Part shown: positions 3,833-11,398 of the stretch, in pieces
Numbering within the stretch: position 1 is the first letter of the stretch
Layout: every line of letters starts with the position of its first letter
NCBI RefSeq assembly: GCF_004114915.1
Contig: NZ_CP022219.1
Span: forward strand, 3,254,501-3,318,500
DNA: 64,000 nucleotides
Reading direction: 5' to 3'
Source of the DNA: Bradyrhizobium guangxiense
GTDB taxonomy: Bacteria > Pseudomonadota > Alphaproteobacteria > Rhizobiales > Xanthobacteraceae
The notes under the pieces: generated by a model
Told to the model about the DNA's origin: nothing
Databases searched by the model: none
The model's input: only the letters and a program-made list of their open reading frames with translations
Made by a program: the position numbers and the translations under genes

Positions 3833-4474
3833 ATGAGCCGCCTCTCGGACATGCTGCGCACGCAGCGCTTCGACGATTACCGCTTCTACCACCAGAGCAC
3901 CGTCAACCAGACGCTGCACCTGATCAGTGCTGTGATCTTCCTCGGCTGCTACGCTCTGCTGTTCAAGGACCCCGCCATCGCCGGCATCGTCGGCTGGCTC
4001 GCGATGCTGACGCGGCAGACCGGGCATTTCTTCTTCGAGCCGAACGGCTATGACGCCGTCAACGACGTCAGCAACGAACACAAGGAAGCGATCAAGGTCG
4101 GCTACAACCAGACCCGCAAGATCATCCTGCTGCTGGTCTGGGGCAGCGCGCCGCTTGCGCTGTATGCCTTTCCGACGCTGTTCGGGCTGTTCGATGCGCC
4201 AGCTGACCGCCTCGATTTCGTCCGGCATGTCGGCACGCTCTGGCTCGCCATCGGTGTCGGCGGCGGACTTGCGCGCATGCTGCAGCTGTTCGCGACGCGC
4301 GATGTCACGATGGGCCTCGTCTGGGTGTTCAAGGTGCTGACCGATCCCTTCCACAACATCGCGCTGTACTGGAATTCGCCGCTCAAGCTGCTGCGCGGTG
4401 AGGTGATCGACACCGCTATCGCGGACGCTGATTGGGGCGATGAAGAGGCCGAGGAAGCCGCGCACCCGACGTGA
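3833..4474 (+). CDS. Integral membrane protein, Mpo1/DUF962-like
   Basis: A 213-residue protein with about four hydrophobic segments (near residues 28-45, 50-62, 92-112 and 132-150). The motifs HQSTVNQTLHLISAV and QTGHFFFEPNG resemble the conserved His-containing N-terminus and the GHxxFE signature of the Mpo1/YGL010w family, where the histidines bind iron in 2-hydroxy fatty acid alpha-oxidation. This assignment is an inference. The acidic tail (DADWGDEEAEE) is cytoplasmic-looking. It is monocistronic, between a convergent-side gap and the argD leader. Confidence 0.6.
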   Translation: MSRLSDMLRTQRFDDYRFYHQSTVNQTLHLISAVIFLGCYALLFKDPAIAGIVGWLAMLTRQTGHFFFEPNGYDAVNDVSNEHKEAIKVGYNQTRKIILLLVWGSAPLALYAFPTLFGLFDAPADRLDFVRHVGTLWLAIGVGGGLARMLQLFATRDVTMGLVWVFKVLTDPFHNIALYWNSPLKLLRGEVIDTAIADADWGDEEAEEAAHPT

Positions 4475-4529
4475 CCGACGCACGCTCGGCGAGCATCTTG
4501 CAAAATGCCTGCTTGTTGCAAAAGCCCGC

Positions 4530-4535
4530 TTGACA
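4530..4535 (+). promoter_or_regulatory. Candidate -35 box of the argD leader transcript
   Basis: A perfect TTGACA lies 32 bases before the leader peptide start. A 17-base spacer leads to GTACGG around 4553, which is a poor -10 match, so the box is only suggestive. Its position fits transcription through the leader peptide and attenuator. Confidence 0.4.
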
Positions 4536-4567
4536 AGTCCTGCTATTCGGCTGTACGGACGCGCCCC

Positions 4568-4660
4568 ATGATCAACGCCCGGACCAACCAGCGCACCAAC
4601 ATGCACCGCCGTCGCTCCCGCGACGACGAGAGGGTGCGCCATGTCCGAGGACGCCGCTGA
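4568..4660 (+). CDS. Arginine-rich leader peptide of argD (30 residues)
   Basis: A 30-codon frame, ATG to TGA, with 11 arginine codons. A run of CGC CGT CGC at 4607-4615 is followed by a further CGC at 4619, and AGG, CGC, CGA, CGC, CGC follow. It ends 28 bases before an intrinsic-terminator hairpin and 101 bases before argD, whose pathway makes arginine. The layout is that of a ribosome-mediated attenuator: scarce charged tRNA-Arg would stall translation in the leader. No peptide function is implied. The peptide is too short to be judged by coding statistics; support is the Arg density, the position and the matching RNA segments. Confidence 0.7.
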   Translation: MINARTNQRTNMHRRRSRDDERVRHVRGRR

Positions 4661-4688
4661 ACCACTGAATTCAGCTGAAGTTTTCGAG

Positions 4689-4726
4689 AAGGCCGCACCC
4701 GCAAGGTGCGGCCTTTCTGCTTTTTG
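4689..4726 (+). terminator. Attenuator: intrinsic terminator with competing upstream segments
   Basis: AAGGCCGCACC (4689-4699) pairs perfectly with GGTGCGGCCTT (4705-4715) around a CGCAA loop, followed by TTTCTGCTTTTT. Inside the leader peptide frame, GGTGCGC (4633-4639) is complementary to CGCACC of the terminator's left arm (antiterminator). It is also perfectly complementary to GCGCACC (4591-4597), which gives the 1:2, 2:3, 3:4 exclusion logic of amino-acid attenuators. A ribosome stalled on the Arg run at 4607-4615 would mask segment 1 and free segment 2. Confidence 0.75.
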
Positions 4727-4761
4727 CGCCCCTTTTCCACCCGCCTCCAGAGGAGTTCGAC

Positions 4762-5952
4762 ATGACCACGCATCCGTATGACGCGCTGATGGACATCACC
4801 GCACGGCCGAAGGCCGTGTTCGTCCGCGGCGCCGGCTCCTACCTCTGGGACGACAGCCGCAAGCGCTATCTGGATTTCGTGCAGGGCTGGGCCGTGAACT
4901 GCCTCGGCCACTCCTCGCCCGCGATCGCCGATGCGCTCGCCGCACAGGCCAAGCGGCTATTGACGCCGAGCCCGGCCTTCTACAACGAGCCGAGCCTGAA
5001 GCTGGCGCAGGCGCTGGTCGAGAACAGCGCGTTCGACCAGGTCTTTTTCGCCAATTCAGGCGCGGAAGCCAATGAGGGGGCGATCAAGCTCGCGCGAAAA
5101 TATGGCAGCCTGCACAAAGGCGGCGCGTTCGAGATCATCAGCTTCGAAGGCGGCTTCCACGGCCGGACCCTGGCGACGATGTCGGCCTCGGGCAAGAAGG
5201 CATTCGAGCCGCTGTTCGAGCCGAAGGTCGCGGGCTTCAAGAAAGCGAAGTTGAACGACATCGCCTCGGTCGAAAAGCTGATCAACGCTAACACCGTCGC
5301 TGTGATGCTGGAGCCGATCCAGGGTGAATCCGGCGTATGGCCTGCGACCGATCAGTTTCTGCAGGAGCTTCGCGCGCTGACCGAGGCACACGGCCTGCTG
5401 CTCATTTTCGACGAGATCCAGACCGGCATGGGCCGGACCGGAAAGCTCTTCCACTACGAGCACGCCGGCATCGCCCCCGACATCATGACGCTCGGCAAGG
5501 GCATCGGCGGCGGCGTGCCGCTCGCAGCGCTGCTCGCGACCGAACGCGCCTCCTGCTTCGAGCACGGCGACCAGGGCGGCACGTTCAACGGCAATCCGAT
5601 CATGTGCGCGGCGGGGCTTGCGGTGCTCGAACAGGTCAGCGTGCCCGACTTCCTCAAACAGGTCACCGAGACCGGCCTCCTGCTCGAAAGCGAGCTGCAG
5701 AAGGTCTCGGCCCGGCATGGGCTCGGCGGCGTGCGGGGACGCGGCCTGTTGCTCGCACTCGACCTCAAGCTGCCGATCGCGCTGGGCATCGTCGCGCAGG
5801 CGTTCGAAGCCGGTGTGCTGCTGAACGCCCCGCAGGTCGACACCTTGCGCTTCATACCGGCGCTGAACGTCACGAAGGCAGAGATCGCCGAGATGATCGA
5901 ATGTCTCGACGCGATCTTGACGAAAGCTGGGGCGGCACGGCGCGTCGCGTAG
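4762..5952 (+). CDS. argD: Acetylornithine aminotransferase
   Basis: A 396-residue class-III PLP-dependent aminotransferase. Signatures are [15 protein letters not shown] and [23 protein letters not shown] (phosphate contact), [12 protein letters not shown], and [11 protein letters not shown] with the PLP lysine at Lys246. ArgD converts N-acetylglutamate semialdehyde to N-acetylornithine in arginine synthesis and often also serves in lysine synthesis. GAGGAG before the ATG is a good ribosome site. The Arg-rich leader and attenuator directly upstream support an arginine role over other class-III transaminases. It is followed by a palindromic repeat and a convergent gene, so it is a single-gene unit. 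Confidence 0.88.
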
Positions 5953-10978: not shown

Positions 10979-11311
10979 ATGATTAAAGCGCGGACCGCCA
11001 AATTCCAGATCGGACAGGTCGTGCGCCACCGGATCTTCTCATTCCGGGGCGTGATCTTCGACATCGATCCGGAATTCAACAACACCGAGGAGTGGTGGCT
11101 GTCGATCCCCGAGGAGGTGCGGCCCCACAAGGACCAGCCGTTCTACCACCTGCTCGCGGAGAACGCTGAGTCCGAGTACGTCGCCTATGTGTCCGAGCAG
11201 AACCTGCTGCCGGACGAGTCCGGCGAGCCGATCCGGCATTCCCAGGTCGCCGAGATATTCATCAAGAACAAGGATGGCGGCTACCGCCCGCGCAATCCCT
11301 CGCTGAACTAG
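10979..11311 (+). CDS. hspQ: Heat shock protein HspQ
   Basis: A 110-residue YccV-like domain protein. MIKARTAKFQIGQVVRHR is followed by FSFRGVIFDIDPEFNNTEEWW, HKDQPFYHLLAE and YVAYVSEQNLLPDE, all diagnostic of HspQ. In enterics HspQ is a Lon-specificity factor that also binds hemimethylated DNA. An AGAG stretch lies just before the ATG. The C-terminal tail after GEPIRHSQV is slightly extended. The gene has its own transcript between two divergent or convergent neighbours. Confidence 0.92.
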   Translation: MIKARTAKFQIGQVVRHRIFSFRGVIFDIDPEFNNTEEWWLSIPEEVRPHKDQPFYHLLAENAESEYVAYVSEQNLLPDESGEPIRHSQVAEIFIKNKDGGYRPRNPSLN

Positions 11312-11371: not shown

Positions 11372-11398
11372 AAAAGGCGCTCGAGATGAGCGCCTTTT
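11372..11398. terminator. Bidirectional intrinsic terminator
   Basis: AAAAGGCGCTC (11372-11382) and GAGCGCCTTTT (11388-11398) form a perfect 11-bp stem with a GAGAT loop, flanked by A and T runs on both sides. It lies between the convergent hspQ and IalB-like genes and can end transcription from either direction. Confidence 0.85.

Follow-up and report, generated by a model that had tools for sequence, protein, structure and literature searches.

The 64,000-nt stretch of Bradyrhizobium guangxiense DNA analysed here (the window) carries at 4762..5952, on the forward strand like all window features given below, an acetylornithine transaminase gene, argD, of the NF002985/PRK03715 type (647.8 bits, cut-off 568), preceded by the ribosome-binding site AGAGGAG (4749..4755), which is largely conserved in the alignment. 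An earlier note on this DNA had likewise named the gene downstream argD, and had placed before it a 30-residue frame at 4568-4660 with 11 Arg codons, including CGC CGT CGC, and an intrinsic terminator at 4689-4726. The gene assignment holds, the re-derived coordinates of the frame were correct and the terminator was found again, with a 12-bp stem at 4688-4716, a loop of 5 and a U-rich tail to 4726. The leader open reading frame (ORF; 4568..4660, sequence MINARTNQRTNMHRRRSRDDERVRHVRGRR) is single-copy: a second leader in the source genome was looked for and rejected, only one covariance-model match being present. This argD is also the only copy above the NF002985 cut-off in its genome. The other argD (minus strand, near 6344165 of G000:C1) was found to have TTGACA and, close behind it, a hairpin formed by GTGCCGCC..GGCGGCAC whose tail is T-rich; no Arg-run leader ORF was detected before this gene, which is followed by an argF-like ORF, which we take to be ornithine carbamoyltransferase.

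At 106 relatives' loci the leader ORF is 87, 90 or 93 nt long including the stop codon, thus stepping by codons, and encodes 9-13 Arg, and the spacer between stop codon and terminator is 26-32 nt, in single-base steps. The filter by which these loci were selected required an open ORF, but none was excluded by it because of a frameshift. In L018, L019 and L059 the ORF start was moved upstream to a neighbouring ATG. The three consecutive Arg encoded by the control codons CGC CGT CGC (4607..4615) are retained in 101 of the 106 leaders, the other five reading RRH, RRC or QRR. Within the genus this Arg conservation is inseparable from RNA constraint, because many of the Arg codons fall in paired, nucleotide-conserved segments. 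Arg richness alone was ruled out as evidence, since the window contains, on both strands, 8 ORFs of 15-40 codons with at least 10 Arg, compared with a mean of 6.5 (sd 2.4) in 30 dinucleotide shuffles. The combination of an ORF with at least 8 Arg and a T-tailed hairpin at most 80 nt later occurred in none of 30 shuffled windows and at two distinct stop positions in the real one. The other of these two cases (ORF 11187-11306, 9 Arg of 39 residues, hairpin near 11374) is weaker and unrelated.

Segment 1 (4580..4597) is made up of CGGAC (4580-4584) and GCGCACC (4591-4597), and segment 2 (4632..4647) of GGGTGCG, which can pair with segment 3 or 1, and GTCCG, which can pair with 4580-4584. The 1:2 hairpin is built of two stems, CGGAC:GTCCG outside and GCGCACC:GGTGCGC inside, and of a nested hairpin, supported by conservation and covariation, with the control codons as its 5' arm and 4620-4628 as its 3' arm. 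The antiterminator (4632..4700) pairs 4632-4638 with 4694-4700, 4639-4640 with 4691-4692, 4644-4652 with 4680-4689 and 4656-4661 with 4670-4675, the last being a GCUGA:UCAGC helix across the leader stop codon that occurs in 98 of 99 unique leaders. Segments 3 and 4 form the terminator (4688..4726). The earlier note had GGTGCGC (4633-4639) pairing with either GCGCACC (4591-4597) or CGCACC (4694-4699), in 1:2, 2:3, 3:4 competition; both pairings were confirmed and three mutually exclusive pairings were found by computation, with an antiterminator longer than previously described (MFE z-scores of the window's leader against 300 shuffles: 1:2 -3.1, 2:3 -4.4, 3:4 -5.0). Some leader Arg codons lie close to the stop codon, 3' of segment 2, and stalling at these should not antiterminate.

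Covariation was evaluated in 52 distinct rows. For hairpin and terminator, 97.7% of cells are paired, with 6 pairs and 19 cells doubly changed; none of 500 shuffles scored as high in these measures or in the covariation score, while the further-types measure was unexceptional (243 of 500 shuffles as high). The outer stem gives no covariation evidence, because it is invariant in 52/52 rows. In nine sequences a terminator pair is G-C instead of A-U; six of them have C for the usual U in segment 2 and three keep G-U, a three-way change that would fit competing pairings. For the antiterminator, 94.9% of cells are paired, with a single covarying pair; the signal is modest, and weaker in a divergent set, in which 25 of 500 shuffles reach the observed score. 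The mean 2:3 duplex energy differs little between cognate and mismatched segments (-9.9 vs -9.4 kcal/mol, 24 types). Exact GGTGCGC:CGCACC pairing was rejected as a universal feature, as it is exact in the window's clade, L087 and L097 having altered letters, and the majority of the rest need a bulge or mismatch. Joint change of the complementary segments is thus clear for hairpin and terminator and modest for the antiterminator. Rows with a gap misplaced by MAFFT (L020, L021, L024, L025) were retained in alignment A1; alignment A3 comprised 20 of the 53 A1 rows, hand-picked for divergence, plus 10 new ones.

A -35 box TTGACA (4530..4535) is present in 106/106 leader loci, 32 nt from the leader ATG in 98 of them, 31 nt in six and 30 nt in two. 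The probable -10 box is CTGTAC (4551..4556), with a TGTA motif 3' of the -35 box in 104/106 loci and the reading CTATAT in the divergent locus L140. A promoter scan based on the E. coli-type consensus detected no promoter at the leader. With the usual promoter geometry, the TTGACA spacing would put the start site 0-5 nt 5' of the AUG, with no space for a Shine-Dalgarno sequence, so that the leader ORF is probably translated from a leaderless mRNA. Mean pairwise identity among 53 representatives is 0.60-0.61 within the 38 nt 5' of the leader ATG and falls to 0.35 and then 0.29 further out; with this drop lying 5' of the -35 box, promoter, leader and gene seem to be conserved together as a unit.

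The leader, filtered for 26-31 codons and at least 8 Arg, was found at 106 of 110 argD loci. These loci are not independent of one another, as L001 represents the window and the two collections share some contigs; there are 99 unique leaders and 83 unique ORFs. Among the four misses, L078 is cut by a contig end, L094 carries an insertion, L109 has a different Arg leader and L110 has none. Of 265 genomes in the genus, 256 gave a match to a covariance model of the leader; in the nine without a match, five of them only 67-81% complete, there is no argD of the NF002985 type at E<=1e-90. One genome (G035) carries only a C-terminal argD fragment, and a 75%-complete assembly (G234) has a leader match with argD not found. 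Of the 296 genomes drawn from the family, 37 have argD, 36 of these have a leader match below E 1e-26, and every genome with such a match has argD; nine of the leader-bearing genomes lie outside the genus, with a 72-79% identical argD directly downstream. Weaker matches (E 1e-6 to 1e-3) occur elsewhere. The weak match in G175 is explained by its truncated upstream region (L151, 144 nt). Leader and complementary segments, whose conservation the earlier note had proposed to check, are thus kept nearly wherever relatives keep argD of this type.

Several loci deserve separate mention. At L094 and L154 the leader has been replaced by DNA encoding what we take to be a transposase-like C-terminus, a natural disruption in which the terminator end remains; in G203, with a locus like L094, likewise only the terminator end is left before argD. 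The best covariance-model match of G203 (E 1.5e-24) is stronger than this remnant and may be the leader's front part, displaced to a different contig. Three records labelled Frankia, Reyranella and Acetobacteraceae (L044, L078, L103) contain an argD resembling that of Bradyrhizobium, accompanied in L044 and L103 by the leader, and are probably mislabelled or misbinned.

Leaders of unrelated sequence were found before the same argD subfamily. Genome G324 (argD 63%), the one argD-bearing member of the family draw that lacks such a leader match, has the leader MQYASTNARRRRRARRFSAGAWDMRTR after TTGACA and before a terminator-like hairpin, and the gammaproteobacterium Oceanospirillum beijerinckii (L109; argD 60%) has the leader MNTFTNAQNTACFIAHTLRRRVSNACACLGVGSRRR and a terminator. 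For a wider search, 62 argD upstream regions from outside the family (L189-L248, L109 and L110) were subjected to a fixed rule, namely an ORF of 8-60 codons with at least 3 consecutive Arg codons and a terminator 15-160 nt later; 91 of the 128 argD genomes of one collection lie outside this set, as do G609 and G890. The rule, drawn up after some of these leaders were known, matched 31 of the 62 regions, some of which are close relatives and hence not independent, compared with 0/620 shuffles and 0/874 other windows of the same loci. The choice of ORF is doubtful in two matches (L212, L218). The other 31 regions are without the design by this rule, several having only RR and a terminator (L194, L196, L197, L203, L228, L234, L236, L239). 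By eye, most rule-matching leaders begin a few bases 3' of a TA-rich -10 box. Their Arg runs are 3-4 codons long and contain 109 codons (CGC 59, CGA 31, CGT 19) and no other Arg codons; by standard decoding, every codon of these runs would be read by a single tRNA-Arg(ICG). Complementarity to segment 3 is mildly above chance (median p 0.115; p<=0.05 in 8/31), and by eye GTCTGTG in the leaders of L196, L197 and L206 can pair with CACAG(A/G)C of the terminator. As these leaders look dissimilar in sequence to that of Bradyrhizobium, RNA pairing in the latter element does not by itself account for the recurring Arg run. In L211, a strong manganese (yybP-ykoY) riboswitch match (2777-2953, 106 bits) was observed 3' of argD.

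Three of these loci (L205, L208, L223) match the Rfam family RF02884, BcKCsr7, at the leader with 143, 92.6 and 89 bits (gathering threshold 59), the other seven of the 10 loci scanned being below the threshold; in the family consensus, CGA CGC CGC CGC comes after an AUG and in its frame. Within 4000-5300 of the window no Rfam match was obtained at E<=1, including RF02884, T-box and known riboswitches. The available part of PMC10987360 gives Bc_KC_sr7 the aliases nc5U30 and RIT34, places it at 2,967,641-2,967,787 of J2315 chromosome 1 and describes it as expressed. Short 5'UTRs arising through processing or attenuation are described in the available part of PMC5688073, the text of which does not contain the word arginine, and argD is absent from the main text of PMC4603805, PMC4842269 and PMC2965389. 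In its available part, PMC1262725 names T-boxes for arginine and no arginine attenuator, and the available parts of PMC3110155, PMC6321483, PMC7011215 and PMC8632094 contain nothing on arginine leader attenuation; a terminator-based arginine leader was not found described in the open-licence literature. An ArgR domain (PF01316) over the cut-off was detected in 0/40 genomes of the genus (one weak match) and in 0/60 from a second family, very small genomes among them, with 9 of 14 control genomes positive, 8 above the cut-off.

The element before argD very probably controls transcription by ribosome-mediated attenuation with specificity for arginine, as judged from its computed parts, their conservation, mutual exclusivity and partial covariation, the close linkage to argD and the recurrence of the design. 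It combines what ribosome-mediated amino-acid attenuators have: a short ORF in which end-product codons cluster (11 of 30 Arg), a 1:2 hairpin (4580-4647) competing with an antiterminator, its nested part covarying and its outer stem invariant, an intrinsic terminator between leader and gene that covaries among relatives, and a downstream gene whose product makes the sensed amino acid. From this we infer the start site, translation, stalling and direction of response as follows. RNA polymerase would start at or just 5' of the leader AUG, and a ribosome would load on the leaderless mRNA and trail the polymerase. When charged tRNA-Arg is scarce, the ribosome would stall at CGC CGT CGC, its footprint would mask segment 1, and segment 2 would be free for segment 3, allowing argD to be transcribed. 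With plentiful arginine, the ribosome would reach the stop codon and depart, 1:2 would pair, 3:4 would form and transcription would terminate before argD. The mechanism is best explained as the earlier note had it: all the parts named there are present, although that reading was incomplete, lacking the promoter, the probable leaderless start, the outer stem, the nested hairpin, the full length of the antiterminator and the unrelated leaders of the same design.

The wider spread of the Arg-leader design is the newer result. We consider it likely that arginine attenuators form a class which is widespread, has gone unrecognised and is tied to the NF002985 argD subfamily in Alpha- and Gammaproteobacteria and Burkholderia-type bacteria, its members being mostly leaderless, read through CGA/CGC/CGU and acting as a stand-in for ArgR in bacteria that lack it. 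Within this class, the Bradyrhizobium element would be one lineage and BcKCsr7 another, mislabelled as a free-standing sRNA.

Two other readings turn on what the leader ORF is for. The leader peptide might arrest the ribosome by binding arginine or ornithine inside its tunnel, independently of codon starvation, nascent-chain arrest having precedents in the fungal AAP and the enterobacterial SpeFL. An Arg-rich peptide with conserved DD and VRRxR residues would suit such a sensor, as would the SPLP or SLLP that follows RRRR in several unrelated leaders; the DD codons, however, make up the 3' side of a hairpin that covaries, most non-Arg residues (codons 2, 3, 4, 7, 10, 12 and 13) vary freely among relatives, and the sequence around the Arg run differs between lineages, which makes this reading unlikely. 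Alternatively, the ORF could be a by-product of GC-rich paired segments, the element being a ligand-binding riboswitch or the plain terminator of the upstream gene. That would account for Arg codons that are nucleotide-conserved inside stems, and Arg-rich ORFs are common in the window, but a conserved promoter-like site stands between the upstream gene and the terminator, and the drop in identity upstream of it, the codon-sized steps in ORF length, the Arg runs of unrelated leaders and the lack of an Rfam match within 4000-5300 all speak against this explanation, which we regard as very improbable.

Attenuation in cis is also to be weighed against a terminated leader RNA or peptide acting mainly in trans, with argD control secondary. 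Such a role has a precedent in Sinorhizobium rnTrpL/peTrpL (available parts of PMC10117765 and PMC7298713), and the counterpart in Burkholderia has been catalogued among expressed small RNAs. Against it, the leader stays closely linked to a single downstream gene from genome to genome, which favours a cis role, and we think it highly unlikely that trans action predominates. If arginine attenuation is the true function, arginine joins the amino acids sensed by classical attenuation, bacteria without detectable ArgR gain a candidate arginine switch, and an orphan Rfam small-RNA family is explained.

Leader-peptide attenuators of his, trp, leu, thr, ilv and phe operons in Proteobacteria are said to have been described by Vitreschak and colleagues in 2004; to our knowledge, arginine is not among the specificities of these classical systems. 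They share with the argD leader a run of end-product codons, an intrinsic terminator, 1:2/2:3/3:4 competition and a biosynthetic gene downstream, whereas the argD leader is predicted to sense arginine and has its control codons in a nested hairpin. Closest in host is trpL (rnTrpL) of Sinorhizobium meliloti, also an alphaproteobacterial attenuator with a leaderless ORF at the mRNA 5' end, experimentally established there and probable for argD, but with tryptophan specificity and a 14-residue peptide (PMC10117765, available part). Salmonella speF orf34 also contains consecutive Arg codons and senses arginine, but as described in the available part of PMC6386406 it works through Rho-dependent termination and RNase G decay, with no intrinsic terminator found, and precedes a polyamine gene and not one of arginine synthesis; before argD there is a strong intrinsic terminator. 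In Staphylococcus aureus, rbfL senses arginine limitation through leader-peptide Arg codons, but these are the rare AGA/AGG, and it blocks translation initiation of a biofilm regulator without a terminator switch (PMC13009471, available part). The Pseudomonas aeruginosa carAB leader has a leader peptide before an arginine-pathway gene, but there arginine control is at transcription, with possible pyrimidine attenuation (PMC4997734, available part, describing Kwon 1994). BcKCsr7 (Burkholderia sRNA 7) differs in being catalogued as an sRNA (PMC10987360, available part) and in a model that the window element does not match, but it lies 5' of the same argD subfamily and, like the argD leader, combines an AUG and consecutive Arg codons, four in its case, with a terminator hairpin at its end.
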